The notes below the pieces were generated by a model that did no database searches, was not told the origin of the DNA, and saw only the letters and a program-made list of their open reading frames with translations. The position numbers and the translations under genes are program-made. This document shows, in pieces, positions 28,947 through 36,485 of a DNA stretch of 64,000 nt (position 1 is its first letter; the number at the start of each line of letters is the position of its first letter). The stretch lies in the NCBI GenBank assembly GCA_016778895.1, contig JADHOR010000001.1:1-64000 (forward strand), read 5' to 3'. This DNA is from Candidatus Puniceispirillum sp. Its GTDB lineage: Bacteria; Pseudomonadota; Alphaproteobacteria; Puniceispirillales; Puniceispirillaceae.

Positions 28947-31900
28947 TCAATGAAAATCGCGGCTTTTCATCCGAACCGCACCCTTAGTGCCCGTGCTGGC
29001 ATCAATATGACGCAGAAACCCATTCAGATTAAACAGTGACTCGGCAATGAAATGTACCACCGCTTGTTGGCGTTGTACGCGGCCAACCAATCCCAAAATC
29101 TGTGCGCGCAACAACGCCTCGCGGTAAGTTTCGGTTAGTTTGGGCCAGATAATCACATTGGCTGTGCCCTGCCCGTCCTCAAGCGTTATGAACACAGTGC
29201 CACTGGCCGTACCAGGTCGTTGGCGCATAGTTACAAGACCAGCGATTCGAAGCCGTTTGCCGTCGGGCGCTTGTTGCACATTGCTACAAAGCTGCCACCC
29301 CGCCACACCAAGCGGTTTTACCAACAGGTCAAGCGGATGCGCCTTTAATGACAGGCCGAGACTACGGTAATCTTCAGCCACTGCCTCGCCAAGCGGGGTC
29401 TTTGGTAAGGCAATCACCGGCTCGTCGCCGGCAAGCCGTTCATGCTGACGGCCAGCATGGGCAAATAGTGGCATATCATGCAGCCGGTGCCGGGCCAGCC
29501 CACGCGCCGCCCAAAATGCCTGTCGCCGGTCAATGCCCAGACTGGAAAACCCATCAGCATTTGCAATCGCTTGTAATGATTTAGCCGACACATCGGCTTT
29601 TCGCATCACATCATCTAGGCTGGAAAATGTCAGACCCTGCCGCCCTTTAACGGCATCATTGCCGATAACCTGACTGGCAGCAATCCTCTCACCTTCACCG
29701 CGTGCCAGCCCTTTGACCAGCCGCAGCCCAAGCCGCAAGGCATGATGCCCGGTTTTATTATCGGGGTCGGTTTCAAGACGGTGATCCCAGCCAGAAAAAT
29801 TCACATCAACCGCCCGAATTGCAATACCGCTTCGCTTCGCCTCGGCAATCAATTGTGACGGTGCATAAAATCCCATTGGCTGGGCGTTCAGCAATGCACA
29901 GATGAAAATATCGGGATAATGGCATTTCAACCATGCCGAAACATATACCAAAAGAGCAAAACTCGCCGCATGGGATTCTGGAAATCCATATTTGCCAAAG
30001 CCCTCAATCTGGCGAAAACAGCGCAAAGCAAAATCTTCATCATAACCACGCTCGATCATGCCGGTAACCACCTTCTGGCGGAAATGACTGATATCAAACT
30101 GTTTTTTAAAGGTCGCCATGGCGCGGCGTAATTGATCGGCCTCACTTCCCGAAAATCCTGCGCCAACAATGGCAATTTGCATTGCCTGTTCCTGAAAAAG
30201 TGGTACGCCAAGAGTACGCTCTAGCACCTTGCGCAGGGCTGGTGACGGATAGTCAACCTTTTCCAGACCGGCGCGCCGCCGCAAATAGGGGTGTACCATA
30301 TCGCCCTGAATTGGCCCCGGACGGACAATCGCCACCTGCACAACAAGATCATGAAAACATCGTGGCTGTAACCGCGGCAACATCGCCATTTGTGCCCGCG
30401 ATTCCACCTGAAAGACGCCAACCGATTGGCCCCGGCATAGCATATCATAGGTTGCTGCATCTTCAGGCGGCACCGAGGCCAGTGTCAGCGTCTGGTTATA
30501 ATGAACCCGCAACAGATCAAAACCGCGTCGAATACAGCTAAGCATGCCAAGCGCCAGCACATCGACCTTTAGCAATCCCAGCGCGTCGAGATCATCTTTA
30601 TCCCACTCAATGACCGTCCGTCCGGCCATTGCGGCAGGGCTGATCGGGCACAGATGATCAAGCCGCCCCCGGGTAATCACAAAACCGCCAGCATGCTGCG
30701 ATAAATGTCGCGGAAACCGGCTAATTTCAGCGACTAATTGCAGCACCAGCCGGAGGCGGCGATCATGTGCATCCAGCCCTGCCGCCGTCAACGCATTATC
30801 ATCAAGACCGGTTTTTTCACGCCCCCATACTTCGCTGGCCAAAGCCGCTTGCACATCACGGCTAAGACCAAACACCTTGGCAACTTCACGAAAGGCACTA
30901 CGCCGCCGATAGGTGATAACGCTTGCGGCAAGTCCGGCACGATTACGACCATATTTCGCATAGATATACTGAATGACCTCTTCGCGGCGCTCATGTTCAA
31001 AATCAACATCAATATCCGGTGGCTCGCCACGCGCCTCACTGACAAACCTCTCAAATAAAGGCCGCGAGCGCGCCGGATCAACCGCGGTGATGCCAAGACA
31101 GTAACAAACGGCTGAATTAGCCGCCGAACCGCGCCCCTGACATAGAATACCGCGCCCCCGGGCAAAGCGCACAATATCGAACACAGTTAGAAAATAAGGC
31201 GCGATATTCAATCGTTCGATCAATATCAATTCATGTTTTAAATAGGCACTCACCTGATCAGGGATTGCGTCGGGATAACGTTTTTCTGCCCCACGCCAAG
31301 TCTGAAAAGCAAGCTCCTGCATGGCGGTTCGCCCACCAGGCTTTAGCTCGTCTGGATATTCATAAGACAGATCATCCATTGAGAAATGACACAGGTCAGC
31401 CAGCGCCCTTGCCCCATCAAGCGCCTCTGGCACCTGCCGCCAACGCCGAACCGCCTCATCACAATCAATCAAATGACGTTCAGCATTACGCGATAAAAGA
31501 TAGCCCGCATTATCAAGCTGTTTTTTCTCGCGGATACAGGTCAGCACGTCAGCCAGCGGGCGACGATCGGGACTGTGATACAGCGCATCTGCCGCCGCTG
31601 CGATACGCAGCTTTAACGACGCTGCTGCTGCCATCAACATCTGGCACCGTGCCTCATCAGCCCCATCACGATAAAGACATAAACCGGCAAATAAGTGCCC
31701 CTTGGCAATTTGCTGAATGCTTTGCAAATGCGCCTGATACTGCGCATCGGGATGGCGCGGCGGCATGACCAGCAATGTGGTGCTTGCCGGCAGACGGGCA
31801 ATATCAGCAAGATACAGAATTGGTGCTGCCTTACTGCCGCGCATATTGGCCTCGCTTAGCAGCATAGACAGCCCTTCATACCCAGCACGGTCTAACGGAT

Positions 31901-32162
31901 GCACCAGAATATCAGGCCCATCGACAGGCCGCAATCTAGCCCCTACAACCAGCCTGATCTGATGATCACGCGCCACAACATGCGCGCGCACAATACCGGC
32001 TAGTGAATTCACATCAGCAATGCCAATCGCCGCCCATCCAAGCGCGGCCGCCTTTGCCACCATTTCATCAGGATGCGAGGCGCCTTTTAAAAAGGTAAAA
32101 TTGCTATAACAGCCAAGCGCCACGTGCCGTTTGGGCTGTGCCGATGATCGCGCCGGTATCAT
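28947..32162 (-). CDS. dnaE2: Error-prone DNA polymerase DnaE2 (ImuC)
   Basis: 1071 residues, the DnaE2 size, shorter than replicative DnaE. It is the translesion polymerase of the ImuA-ImuB-DnaE2 mutasome. The N-terminal PHP domain (LGCYSNFTFLKGASHPDEMV), the palm acidic residues in CQGRGSAANSAVCY...PDIDVDFEHERR, the helix-hairpin region and a C-terminal OB domain (RIAGLVTMRQRPGTASGTVFITLEDGQGTANVIIWP) are visible. Its ATG overlaps the imuB stop by one base (TGATG), implying translational coupling. Expression is probably SOS-controlled through the LexA box before imuA. Confidence 0.96.
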   Translation of the reverse strand: MIPARSSAQPKRHVALGCYSNFTFLKGASHPDEMVAKAAALGWAAIGIADVNSLAGIVRAHVVARDHQIRLVVGARLRPVDGPDILVHPLDRAGYEGLSMLLSEANMRGSKAAPILYLADIARLPASTTLLVMPPRHPDAQYQAHLQSIQQIAKGHLFAGLCLYRDGADEARCQMLMAAAASLKLRIAAAADALYHSPDRRPLADVLTCIREKKQLDNAGYLLSRNAERHLIDCDEAVRRWRQVPEALDGARALADLCHFSMDDLSYEYPDELKPGGRTAMQELAFQTWRGAEKRYPDAIPDQVSAYLKHELILIERLNIAPYFLTVFDIVRFARGRGILCQGRGSAANSAVCYCLGITAVDPARSRPLFERFVSEARGEPPDIDVDFEHERREEVIQYIYAKYGRNRAGLAASVITYRRRSAFREVAKVFGLSRDVQAALASEVWGREKTGLDDNALTAAGLDAHDRRLRLVLQLVAEISRFPRHLSQHAGGFVITRGRLDHLCPISPAAMAGRTVIEWDKDDLDALGLLKVDVLALGMLSCIRRGFDLLRVHYNQTLTLASVPPEDAATYDMLCRGQSVGVFQVESRAQMAMLPRLQPRCFHDLVVQVAIVRPGPIQGDMVHPYLRRRAGLEKVDYPSPALRKVLERTLGVPLFQEQAMQIAIVGAGFSGSEADQLRRAMATFKKQFDISHFRQKVVTGMIERGYDEDFALRCFRQIEGFGKYGFPESHAASFALLVYVSAWLKCHYPDIFICALLNAQPMGFYAPSQLIAEAKRSGIAIRAVDVNFSGWDHRLETDPDNKTGHHALRLGLRLVKGLARGEGERIAASQVIGNDAVKGRQGLTFSSLDDVMRKADVSAKSLQAIANADGFSSLGIDRRQAFWAARGLARHRLHDMPLFAHAGRQHERLAGDEPVIALPKTPLGEAVAEDYRSLGLSLKAHPLDLLVKPLGVAGWQLCSNVQQAPDGKRLRIAGLVTMRQRPGTASGTVFITLEDGQGTANVIIWPKLTETYREALLRAQILGLVGRVQRQQAVVHFIAESLFNLNGFLRHIDASTGTKGAVRMKSRDFH

Positions 32163-33781
32163 CAGGCAAAAAACCCATGCAGAAACCAGACTGGCGTTTC
32201 ATGGCGTTCTGGCAAGCCCTCACGGTACAGCCAAAAGCCAGCCCCCTGATCATCCCGCAACCGGAAATAATCACGCGTACGGGTCCCCGCCGGTGCCTGC
32301 CACCATGCAGGGGCAATCCGTTCCGGCCCCGTTGCATGAATGACCTTATGGACACGCCGCCGCCAGATGAATTGAGCTGGGGGATGGTCGGGCAAAAGTG
32401 CCACAACATCAACCGACTGCGGATAGGCAAGCAGGCGTATAGGGCGCGGCGCGGCGGTTCTCGACGCCGGATCACCAAGCCAGCCAGATTTCTGCGCGCA
32501 ATCAGACAAAGCCCGGTCCAGATCAGGCAAATCAAATGATTGTGCTGCCTCAGGTTGCCAACAGCTTTGCGGCGCCAGACGAACCACCGCACCATAACCA
32601 AGACGCGCTACCAACCGGTCAACAAGGCTGGCATAAACTTCGTCAGCCGCATCATAAATGGCATCATTCTGACGCTCTATCGTCAGGCGCGGCAATGCCG
32701 TATCAAGCGGGGCAAGCGGGCTGCAATCAAGCGATTCCATCCACCCCATTTCAAGACCAAATTCCGGATTGATCTTATCGCTCACATTCGCCAGCAACCG
32801 GTGAAACAGACGCACATCGCGGCTTGGCCGTGAGAGATGAACATCATGGGCAAACACCATCCCATCAACCAGTTGCCAGCCAAGCCGCAAACGACGTGTC
32901 GCTAGTCCGGTTTGCTCAAGCAAGGCCGCAACATCTTTTGCCAGCTGGCGGATCATCGCCTTGATATCATCAGGGGCGCCGATTGGCTCGGCAAATTGAC
33001 GGCATATATAAAGCGGCTTGGGCGGGCTGATCGGGGTAAAGCTTTCATCCTGATCACCAAGCGCCTGATCAAGCCGAAGCAGTAAATCACGCCCAAAACG
33101 CGCCGCTAATGGCGCGCGGGCAAGGCCGATAATATCGCCAATAACCCTTAAACCTGCCCGTTGCATATGACCCGTTATCGCGGCATCTAGGCGTAATGCG
33201 GCGATTGGTAATGGCGCCAAATGGCGGCGCAAGCGGGCGCGGCTAAAGCTGGATCGTGTTATTTCCGGCGCCGTTTTTGCAGCTGTCATCAGGCGCTGCG
33301 ATGGACGCCCATAATGCGCTAACGCCCATGCCGCACCGCAAGTTGGCGCCGCGGCCATGATCACGCGAAGACGGCTTTTATGAAGGCGTTTTGCACAATC
33401 GGCGAGCAACCCCCGCATCCCGCCAAAAATATGCTCAGCCCCAGCAACATCAATCCATATTCCATGAGACTGATGATCAACAGCGGTAAGCGGGCTATAG
33501 CGGCGCGCCCATAATGCCAGATGCTGCAGATCGGCATGATCAGCCGCCGGATCGCATATCTCGGTTCTGACTTGTGGAAATAACGCACGAGCATCGGCAA
33601 GCCGCATACCAGCGTTAAGACCAAGCGTCGCCGCCTTGGCACAGCCTGCCACCACAATATCAGCCCCATTGATTTTCTGGATCAGCAAAAGCGGTACATC
33701 CAGCCGGTTTGTCCGCTGAAAACGCGATGCCGCCAGATAGGGAAACCGAATATAGAGAATATGACGATAAGCTGCTGGCAT
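32162..33781 (-). CDS. imuB: ImuB, Y-family-like mutasome scaffold protein
   Basis: 539 residues from the ATG with AGG nine bases upstream. An ATG at 33808 would extend it by nine residues into imuA without a ribosome-binding site. ImuB resembles Y-family polymerases but lacks their catalytic acidic residues; it bridges DnaE2, ImuA and the beta clamp. The N-terminus (ILYIRFPYLAASRF) replaces the acidic SxxxDxDxFF-type motif of active Y-family enzymes, while the palm/finger text LLIQKINGADIVVAGCAKAA and the conserved GMRLADARALFP remain. It is the middle gene of a three-gene operon with overlapping junctions. Confidence 0.93.
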   Translation of the reverse strand: MPAAYRHILYIRFPYLAASRFQRTNRLDVPLLLIQKINGADIVVAGCAKAATLGLNAGMRLADARALFPQVRTEICDPAADHADLQHLALWARRYSPLTAVDHQSHGIWIDVAGAEHIFGGMRGLLADCAKRLHKSRLRVIMAAAPTCGAAWALAHYGRPSQRLMTAAKTAPEITRSSFSRARLRRHLAPLPIAALRLDAAITGHMQRAGLRVIGDIIGLARAPLAARFGRDLLLRLDQALGDQDESFTPISPPKPLYICRQFAEPIGAPDDIKAMIRQLAKDVAALLEQTGLATRRLRLGWQLVDGMVFAHDVHLSRPSRDVRLFHRLLANVSDKINPEFGLEMGWMESLDCSPLAPLDTALPRLTIERQNDAIYDAADEVYASLVDRLVARLGYGAVVRLAPQSCWQPEAAQSFDLPDLDRALSDCAQKSGWLGDPASRTAAPRPIRLLAYPQSVDVVALLPDHPPAQFIWRRRVHKVIHATGPERIAPAWWQAPAGTRTRDYFRLRDDQGAGFWLYREGLPERHETPVWFLHGFFA

Positions 33782-33791
33782 AGTCACACGC

Positions 33792-34733
33792 CTATTGGGC
33801 AATAGCATGCGGCGGCGTTTGATCTGTCACGACTGGCCACCCCTGCGCCAACAAAGGCTTTACCGAAATTTGCTTTGATCCGGCAGCCTTTGCCGGCCAT
33901 TGATTGATTGCTAATTCGGCCTGTACTGGCGCACTGGTCGATATATCGACATGATCAAGAGCATATAAATGATTACCACCTGCCTGCCAGCCAACTCGGC
34001 ATATATAGGGCCGGCCGCCCCGCGCACGTTGCAGGCTTAAATCCCAAATATGATGCTGCAGGCCGTTAGAATTTGACCATATATTAAGATCAGCCGCCGG
34101 TTTGATCTGCCATGCTGTCTCAAACCCAGACCCGCCAATCGGTGCGCCAAGCAAAAAGGCTGTTGCGCCACTTTCCTCGGCTGCAAGCTGTGCCCGCCTA
34201 GCCAGGCGCATCCAGTAATCAGCGGATTTCTGTACCCCGTCATATTCCATCACGACCGCAGCCACGCCTTCGGTGCGCAGAATATCATCAAGCGCCGCCA
34301 GCCGGCGTGATGGGCTTGGCGTATCAACAATCAGCAGGCGCGCCGGATCCAGTCCAGCCGCCGCCAGCCCATGCCCATATAGCATACCATTGCCGCCGCG
34401 TTGGCTAGCCGGACACCATACAATCAGGCCATTATCACCTGCACCTGCTGTTTTGGGTGGGCTGGTTGTTGCGACCTGTTGGCAGGCATGATGCTGCAGC
34501 ACAGCAAGAAGCGCTATGGTAAAGCCGCTAACCGCCCCATGCGCCTGCATCGCCCCTGATAAAAGATGCACCCGACCAAGCGCCAATCCACCGGCTAACG
34601 CCTGATCCAGCGAATCGATACCAAGCGGTAAACGCGCACCACCCTTATGCCCGTCAACCAGCGCCATTTCCTGGCGCAAGCGAGCCAAATCATATATCTT
34701 TTTTTCTTTTTTAATCTGATGATTAGATGGCAT
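33792..34733 (-). CDS. imuA: ImuA, RecA-like mutasome protein
   Basis: 313 residues. ImuA is a RecA/SulA-related protein needed for induced mutagenesis with ImuB and DnaE2. Recognisable features are LPLGIDSLDQALAGGLALGRVHLLSG at the start of the RecA-like core, the strand-loop LIVWCPASQRGGNGMLYGHGLAAAGLD, and RARGGRPYICRVGWQAGGNH in the C-terminal part. AGGAG precedes the ATG. The leader holds a perfect 15-base hairpin and a LexA operator 83 bases upstream. The stop lies 10 bases before the chosen imuB start. Confidence 0.92.
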   Translation of the reverse strand: MPSNHQIKKEKKIYDLARLRQEMALVDGHKGGARLPLGIDSLDQALAGGLALGRVHLLSGAMQAHGAVSGFTIALLAVLQHHACQQVATTSPPKTAGAGDNGLIVWCPASQRGGNGMLYGHGLAAAGLDPARLLIVDTPSPSRRLAALDDILRTEGVAAVVMEYDGVQKSADYWMRLARRAQLAAEESGATAFLLGAPIGGSGFETAWQIKPAADLNIWSNSNGLQHHIWDLSLQRARGGRPYICRVGWQAGGNHLYALDHVDISTSAPVQAELAINQWPAKAAGSKQISVKPLLAQGWPVVTDQTPPHAIAQ

Positions 34734-34775: not shown

Positions 34776-34815
34776 CTGCATATCGCCTACACCTCGCCTT
34801 ATATATGCATATTTT

Positions 34816-34830
34816 GTTCATGTTTTGTTC
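34816..34830 (-). promoter_or_regulatory. LexA (SOS) operator upstream of imuA-imuB-dnaE2
   Basis: GTTCATGTTTTGTTC fits the alphaproteobacterial LexA site GTTC-N7-GTTC exactly. A third half-site in inverted orientation (GAAC, 34838-34841) follows at the same 11-bp period, so 34827-34841 is also GTTC-N7-GAAC. The operator is 83 bases from the imuA ATG. lexA and recA are not in the window. Confidence 0.85.
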
Positions 34831-34964
34831 TAGTTTAGAACAACATATAAGTCAAGATTTTCCAGCGCCGGAAAGAGGCAAGGCAGCGCGGCCGGACAAC
34901 ATCGCAGCCACGGACGCTAGCAGCTCCCAAATTGCCCAAAAAGACTGGCTCATAAAACCGGTGA

Positions 34965-36134
34965 TTATTTGGGCAGCTCGCTCTCGACCAGTCGCGCCCA
35001 ATAGCTCGCACCGGTTGCAAGCACATCATCATTAAAATCATACCTGTCATTATGCAGCATCGCGCCATTTTTAGCTGGTCCAGCACCAAGCCAGATATAG
35101 GATCCGGGCTTTTCGGCCAGCATATAGGCAAAATCTTCCGCCCCCATTGATGGCGGAAGATCAGTAATGATATTTTCTGCTCCCAGAATATCAGCCGCAA
35201 CCGCCCCAGCGCGGGTTGATTCATCAGCATGATTGACCGTTGGTGGATAGCCCGGTTGCCAGTCAACCTCGATTGCGCACCTGTAGGCCAAAGCTGTTGA
35301 TGTCGCAACCTCACGGATTGAGTCTTCCAGTAATTTTCGGATATGTGGAGAAAATGACCGCGCTGTACCGCCAAGCCTCGCAGTACCGGGAATCACATTC
35401 AGCGCACTACCAGATTCAAAAATTGTTACTGAAACAACAGCAGGCTCCAACGCTGCGACGCGCCGTGAGACGATTGATTGCAGCGATTGCACAATTGCCG
35501 CCCCACACGGGATCGGGTCAATTGCCAGATCGGGGATCGCCGCATGACCGCCAGATCCAGTGATGTGAATTTCAAACATATCCGCCGCCGCCATACAGGC
35601 ACCACTATGCACGCCAATTTTACCAACATCCATCCCTGGCCAGTTATGCATTCCCCACACGGTCTGCATGTCGAACTGATCAAACAGCCCGTCTTTAATC
35701 ATCGCCTCACCACCCTTGCCACCTTCTTCGGCTGGCTGAAAGATGAAATAGACAGTGCCGTCAAAATTCTGTGTTTCCGCAAGATATTGCGCTGCACCAA
35801 GAAGCATTGTGCTGTGCCCATCATGACCACAAGCATGCATCCGGCCCGGGGTTTTCGACGCATGGGTAAACTCGTTCATTTCCTGCATTGGCAACGCGTC
35901 CATATCCGCACGAAGACCAATGGCAGCAGGGCTATTACCAGTACCACGCAACACCCCGACAACGCCGGTTTTGCCCATTCCGCGATGGATTTCAATCCCA
36001 AATGACTGCAGCTTTTCAGCAATGAAATTAGATGTCCAAACTTCTTCGTAACTCGTCTCGGGATGTTGATGCAATAAATGCCGCCACGCCTTCATATCCT
36101 GCTCACGGTCTGCAATCGAATTAATTACCGCCAT
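34965..36134 (-). CDS. M20 family amidohydrolase (HipO/aminoacylase type)
   Basis: 389 residues from the ATG preceded by AGGA nine bases upstream; the frame extends 28 codons further without support. It is a two-metal peptidase-fold hydrolase of N-acyl amino acids. Metal-binding blocks are GLRADMDALPM, HACGHDGHSTMLLGAA, FQPAEEGGKGGEAMI with the catalytic Glu pair, and MHNWPG / SMGAEDFAYML near the C-terminus. Substrate is unknown: N-acetyl or N-benzoyl amino acids are typical. It is divergent from soxBDAG, whose product is glycine, so a role in releasing glycine or another amino acid for the same route is conceivable but only inferred. Confidence 0.88.
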   Translation of the reverse strand: MAVINSIADREQDMKAWRHLLHQHPETSYEEVWTSNFIAEKLQSFGIEIHRGMGKTGVVGVLRGTGNSPAAIGLRADMDALPMQEMNEFTHASKTPGRMHACGHDGHSTMLLGAAQYLAETQNFDGTVYFIFQPAEEGGKGGEAMIKDGLFDQFDMQTVWGMHNWPGMDVGKIGVHSGACMAAADMFEIHITGSGGHAAIPDLAIDPIPCGAAIVQSLQSIVSRRVAALEPAVVSVTIFESGSALNVIPGTARLGGTARSFSPHIRKLLEDSIREVATSTALAYRCAIEVDWQPGYPPTVNHADESTRAGAVAADILGAENIITDLPPSMGAEDFAYMLAEKPGSYIWLGAGPAKNGAMLHNDRYDFNDDVLATGASYWARLVESELPK

Positions 36135-36485
36135 AATGACTGTCCTGACTTGATGTTGAAGGTGGCTCTGGATCCGGAATTGATTGCCGCCTAAACCCTG
36201 CAGGTAACAGTGCCGCAACTAAGCCCCCAAGGTCAAGCAGCAGCCACTGAAAAGACCGGATTAGGGACACTCTTTAGCGCCAATGAATCAGCTTATTATC
36301 GGCGAATTGACAAGCACCGCGCTTGCAGCCTAAAACCGAAGGCTGTCATGTCGACTGGACTATACCCGATGTCGTTGTTGGGCTAGGGATTTATTGCGAA
36401 ATGCGCAGCATGGCGGGGCAAAAATTAGTGACGATGTTTACGCGGTCATTTTGGCTGCTTTTACAAAGATCAAAGGGTGAGGTAC
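36135..36485. other. Divergent intergenic region M20 hydrolase / sox operon
   Basis: 351 bases without a convincing gene. It should hold the promoters for both divergent transcripts. The only element I can name is the candidate promoter at 36307-36336. No glycine-riboswitch-like core was recognised by eye. Confidence 0.35.
36307..36336 (+). promoter_or_regulatory. Candidate promoter of soxBDAG
   Basis: A perfect TTGACA (36307-36312), 18-base spacer, then TAAAAC (36331-36336; 4/6 to TATAAT). It lies about 150 bases before the soxB ATG. The weak -10 keeps confidence low. Confidence 0.3.

Follow-up and report, generated by a model that had tools for sequence, protein, structure and literature searches.

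A predicted LexA operator upstream of imuA-imuB-dnaE2 in Candidatus Puniceispirillum and the unconserved third half-site beside it

Three LexA-type half-sites stand in a row upstream of the imuA-imuB-dnaE2 cassette of Candidatus Puniceispirillum sp., which raises the question of whether they make up two overlapping operators or a single operator with an incidental neighbor. In the 64,000-nucleotide stretch of DNA that was analyzed, referred to in the following as the window, positions 34816–34830 of the plus strand read GTTCATGTTTTGTTC, an exact GTTC-N7-GTTC, and positions 34827–34841 read GTTCTAGTTTAGAAC, an exact GTTC-N7-GAAC, the middle half-site being common to both pairs. The surrounding region, 34812–34844, is TTTTGTTCATGTTTTGTTCTAGTTTAGAACAAC. 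The three half-sites and their 11-bp steps had been noted in a preliminary description of this DNA, and its sequence and positions proved exact. Read in the sense of imuA, the predicted LexA box (34816–34830, minus strand) is GAACAAAACATGAAC, or GAAC-N7-GAAC, and the third, inverted half-site (34838–34841, GAAC on the plus strand) becomes GTTC.

Neither pair was remarkable by number. GTTC-N7-GTTC was found twice in the 64 kb against 1.18 expected, with two or more copies in 31 of 100 shuffled sequences, and the inverted GTTC-N7-GAAC was found once against 0.59 expected. The three-part pattern also occurred once, against an expectation of 0.01 (1 of 100 shuffles) that has to be read knowing that the pattern was picked only after it had been seen. 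A GTTC or GAAC falls in either flanking 11-bp slot at 706 of 63,959 window positions (1.1%), which makes an additional half-site next to a known box unusual, though not exceptional. Across the organism's own genome, the two-part pattern showed no enrichment, with 36 matches compared to 77 for a backward control.

The cassette itself has the expected composition. All three genes lie on the minus strand with overlapping reading frames: imuA at 33792–34733, imuB at 32162–33808 and dnaE2 (imuC), encoding the error-prone polymerase, at 28947–32162. The dnaE2 product matched NF004225 with 1316 bits (cut-off 939). The Y-family-like imuB product matched Pfam IMS_C (PF11799) with 25 bits (cut-off 20.7), while its score for IMS (PF00817), 22.6 bits, fell just below the cut-off of 23.2. 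The imuA product had no match in Pfam and a score of 37.3 bits (E = 2.5e-9) for the NCBIfam ImuA model NF033429, for which the cut-off is 150, and the gene order fits this assignment. Seven named records carry this ImuA, three labeled Candidatus Puniceispirillum, one SAR116 cluster and three Alphaproteobacteria only. Upstream of imuA, on the same strand, is a gene for an M20-type amidohydrolase (34965–36218). The genome also encodes LexA (TIGR00498, 176.5 bits, cut-off 110.95) and RecA (TIGR02012, 571.2 bits, cut-off 325.3).

We then compared the region upstream of imuA between related genomes. Matches in 33 genomes gave 30 loci, of which 29, all of the same family, were examined; one locus (L049) was left out because of a contig edge, and three genomes (G019, G031 and G036) had a match but yielded no locus. 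GAAC-N7-GAAC, in the imuA sense, was present upstream of imuA in all 29. It stood directly before imuA in 28 of them and before the first piece of a split imuA in the remaining one (G022), an assembly in which imuA is divided across two frames and the SOS box is still present. When changes were counted on the ImuA tree for the 13 loci from the genus, both half-sites of the box had 0 changes over 4 columns. The alphaproteobacterial SOS box that the preliminary description had placed before the cassette is supported by its presence at 29 of 29 related loci and by the LexA and RecA encoded in the genome analyzed here. Three genomes of another genus (G017, G033 and G027) have, in addition, a GTTC-N7-GTTC pair of opposite orientation that begins 54–56 bp upstream of the imuA box.

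The first half-site of the box is the GAAC of a presumed −10 hexamer, TAGAAC (34827–34832, minus strand), which was found in 26 of 29 loci and fits what we take to be the alphaproteobacterial −10 consensus. A presumed −35 hexamer, TTGACT (34850–34855, minus strand), lies 17 bp before it. In all 13 genus loci, TTGACY was present at exactly this position, with 1 change over 6 columns (0.17 per column) on the ImuA tree. Over all loci, TTGAC was present there in 19 of 29, but in only 6 of the 16 outside the genus. An E. coli-type scan of the intergenic region found no promoter, and a terminator scan of the same region found none.

Taken together, these comparisons support LexA control of imuA, and from them we infer the identity of the −10 and −35 hexamers, LexA binding, repression and induction by damage. 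The imuA promoter would be TTGACT-N17-TAGAAC, with the GAAC-N7-GAAC box beginning inside the −10 hexamer and extending downstream. Bound to the direct repeat, a LexA dimer would occupy the −10 hexamer and block RNA polymerase; upon DNA damage, RecA-stimulated self-cleavage of LexA would lead to its release, and imuA-imuB-dnaE2 would be switched on.

This leaves the third half-site, which lies in the spacer of the presumed promoter, 11 bp upstream of the half-site within TAGAAC. In the preliminary description, it completes an inverted operator that overlaps the direct one at the middle half-site, so that LexA could bind in alternative registers or as two dimers, with tight repression as the prediction. 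The three half-sites are indeed exact and separated by equal 11-bp steps, and the same three-part site precedes imuA in three other members of the genus (G006, G010 and G013). With the genome analyzed here (G000), this amounts to an exact third half-site in 4 of 13 genus loci, and it was exact in 0 of 16 outside the genus. The proposed second operator is thus absent from 9 of 13 genus loci and 16 of 16 others. An alignment of the imuA upstream regions had been suggested as a check on the third half-site, and its outcome is the one named there as refuting the idea. Close relatives do not keep the half-site, and the two nearest ones (G004 and G015, 92% ImuA identity) have ATTC in the slot.

The pattern of change within the slot gave a more graded picture. 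In the genus, the slot was GTTC in four loci, ATTC in three, GGTC in two, and GCGC, TTTC, GTTT and GGTT in one each; the consensus is GTTC, and 11 of 13 loci are within one mismatch of it. Such a GTTC-like consensus could be explained by drift from a GTTC ancestor and by weak constraint alike. On the ImuA tree, the third half-site underwent 8 changes over 4 columns (3, 3, 1 and 1), or 2.0 per column, compared to 2.75 in the outer spacer, 2.1–2.3 downstream and 3.6 far upstream, all for the same 13 loci. The two outer bases, with 3 changes each, behaved like their unconstrained neighbors, as neutral columns would, which speaks against the two-operator arrangement; the two inner bases, with 1 change each, were better kept. 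The organism's own genome contains GTTC-N7-GAAC at seven places, and only the imuA site also overlaps a GTTC-N7-GTTC, which likewise counts against that arrangement.

The full pattern, GTTC-N7-GAAC-N7-GAAC, was also tried as a genus-wide code and rejected. It had five matches in 16 genus genomes, four of them at imuA and one elsewhere (in G012), compared to four for the backward control.

The better-kept inner bases belong to a longer conserved stretch. TCTAAA (34834–34839, minus strand) lies just upstream of the box and takes in the final TC of the third half-site. At imuA, an exact copy was present in 10 of the 13 genus loci and in none of the 16 others. These inner columns, −9 to −4, underwent 3 changes over 6 columns on the ImuA tree, compared to 2.75 per column farther out. 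In context, the conserved flank is TCTAAA-N-TA. A search for the extended element, TCTAAANTAGAAC-N7-GAAC with at most one mismatch, gave 17 matches, distributed over 13 of the 16 genus genomes; the backward control gave 0. Twelve of these were at imuA, and the other five preceded one other gene, encoding a small cysteine-rich protein (P0004).

From 16 matches to this second gene, 14 promoters of the family were read. GAAC-N7-GAAC was present in all 14, and for this reason the gene is probably an uncharacterized SOS gene; the longer reading of its product had no match in Pfam. The flank, CTAAATTA, accompanied the box in 8 of 14 loci, three of them in other genera (G017, G018 and G019), and was missing from the other six (G006, G009, G014, G016, G020 and G021). 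In the slot corresponding to the third half-site, GTTC was found in 0 of 14 loci and TTTC in 5 of 14. At locus L007, the box lies at 1501–1515 and the open reading frame runs from 1587.

The presence of the flank, in part of the genomes, at a second gene that lacks GTTC in the slot suggests that at imuA the third half-site owes its last bases to this conserved flank, and that the preceding GT is free to vary. Since the third half-site is not kept at imuA and GTTC occurs in none of the 14 slots at the second gene, the reading as two overlapping operators is unsupported, and we regard it as very unlikely.

Two further explanations address the flank, and both are compatible with a single box. One is that TCTAAA-N-TAGAAC-N7-GAAC is an extended operator in which the inner part of the inverted half-site (TTCTA opposite TAGAA) gives LexA a weak accessory contact and the outer G is not needed. 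The slow change of columns −9 to −4, the zero matches to the element in the backward control and the recurrence of the flank before the second gene in other genera would all fit this. However, the lexA and recA boxes of the genus have no such flank, it is missing from the six second-gene loci named above, and exact TCTAAA is not found at any of the 16 imuA loci outside the genus. Furthermore, the flank may serve the promoter instead of LexA. We consider an accessory contact of this kind improbable.

The other explanation is that the flank is a promoter element at the upstream edge of the −10 region, unrelated to LexA, which would explain the flank only. At imuA, it adjoins the presumed −10 TAGAAC, and within the genus the −35 hexamer is fixed 17 bp upstream; at the second gene, however, no comparable −35 hexamer could be seen by eye at that distance. 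A promoter role is thus possible, though on balance we would not favor it.

A different arrangement was found at lexA. The lexA gene of this genome (G000:C45:17375–18010; LexA, P0005, 212 residues) is preceded by GAAC-N7-GAAC-N7-GAAC, with all three half-sites direct (contig coordinates G000:C45:17324–17349; locus L080, 1450–1475). The lexA set comprised 30 loci, with the truncated G044 omitted and with no start located for seven loci from other families within the order. The comparison was done with 13 of them, 11 from the genus plus G016 and G020. The direct triple was exact in 10 of the 11 genus loci, the exception being G004, in which the first half-site is AAAC, and it was likewise exact in G016 and G020, which represent two further genera. 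On the LexA tree of the 11 genus loci, which is poorly resolved (1 of 10 inner branches starred), the first half-site underwent 1 change and the second and third 0 each, compared to 3.0–3.95 changes per column in the flanks; for the two 7-bp spacers, the values were 0.86 and 2.0. A fourth GAAC, 10 bp after the triple, was kept in 8 of 11 loci or fewer, depending on the column.

At lexA of G017, G018, G019 and G021, which represent four other genera of the family, only a pair was present in the 11-bp register. A class-wide sample was made up of the 29 best-scoring genomes among 117 that, apart from G000 and G024, had a lexA match. In its 29 loci, read as far as 250 bases from the family match, the pair was present in 21 and the triple in 0. 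As a pattern enriched genome-wide, the direct triple was rejected, with 14 matches in 37 genomes compared to 17 for the control; 12 of the 14 were just upstream of lexA.

An invariant CTTG at lexA places a TTGNNN hexamer 17 bp ahead of TAGAAC, and the lexA half-site farthest upstream therefore occupies the slot of the extra half-site at imuA. The comparison thus locates this clade's constrained ladder of three half-sites at lexA, not at imuA, and the lexA ladder is the more unusual of the two features. In a literature search that reached few subscription papers, we saw no account of a LexA operator with three half-sites.

Boxes were also noted upstream of other genes of the genus. At recA, two one-mismatch boxes, GAAC-N7-GAAA and GAAC-N7-GTAC, start 30 bp apart in all 14 genus loci read, out of 16. 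A GAAC-N7-GAAC was also observed ≈300–330 bp ahead of mraZ, with which the division and cell-wall cluster begins. It was present in 7 of the 10 genus loci whose upstream sequence reached 479 bases or more (in this genome at G000:C32:138504–138518; locus L019, 1501–1515). Possibly, this box represents a LexA input to cell division.

The conserved direct half-site at lexA bears on imuA in that LexA might possibly contact the same slot there, which would count against a single operator. The clade's LexA (the SAR116 clade) may even read more than two half-sites, as a direct ladder at lexA and through a weak inverted third contact at imuA and the second gene, with promoter-specific contacts tuning repression, but we consider this doubtful. 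The two genes differ in this respect, with a conserved, direct third half-site at lexA and an unconserved, inverted one at imuA. Further observations weigh against the single-operator reading, namely that the genus consensus of the slot is GTTC with 11 of 13 loci within one mismatch, that columns −9 to −4 are kept, that no E. coli-type promoter was found and that the −35 hexamer is fixed in just 6 of 16 loci outside the genus.

Weighing all of this, we conclude, with a probability of roughly 0.8, that the imuA site is a single canonical alphaproteobacterial LexA operator and that the third half-site is incidental. The inverted GTTC, 11 bp upstream, would be a by-product of the variable spacer; its last two bases are part of the conserved TCTAAA flank, and the G and T in front of them would drift freely.

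The operator at imuA belongs to an already known kind, the alphaproteobacterial LexA operators. GTTC-N7-GTTC is given as the alphaproteobacterial LexA motif in three papers (PMC8565304, PMC9578287, PMC3091678), and imuABC is described as an early SOS operon in Caulobacter in PMC12700426, PMC9578287 and PMC8565304, the first of which reports a single LexA box at ≈97% of Caulobacter SOS promoters. According to PMC3901139, imuABC expression is almost exclusively under LexA, and such cassettes have an SOS box upstream. The imuA operator has the direct repeat, spacing and target cassette of the Caulobacter crescentus SOS regulon, from which it differs in the extra inverted half-site, an unconserved addition in this genome. 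Relative to known imuABC mutagenesis cassettes, the gene order and the upstream SOS box are the same; here, the reading frames overlap, and nothing else is notable except the divergent ImuA (37.3 bits, cut-off 150). Compared to the lexA operator of the same clade, both sites have half-sites at 11-bp steps, with the upstream one in the same slot.

An eye-catching third half-site in one genome was thus settled by comparison as not being a conserved operator. In this marine group, lexA is the gene that does seem to have a LexA operator with three half-sites. That site opens the question of how a symmetric LexA dimer sits on direct repeats, and whether a third half-site might strengthen autorepression.
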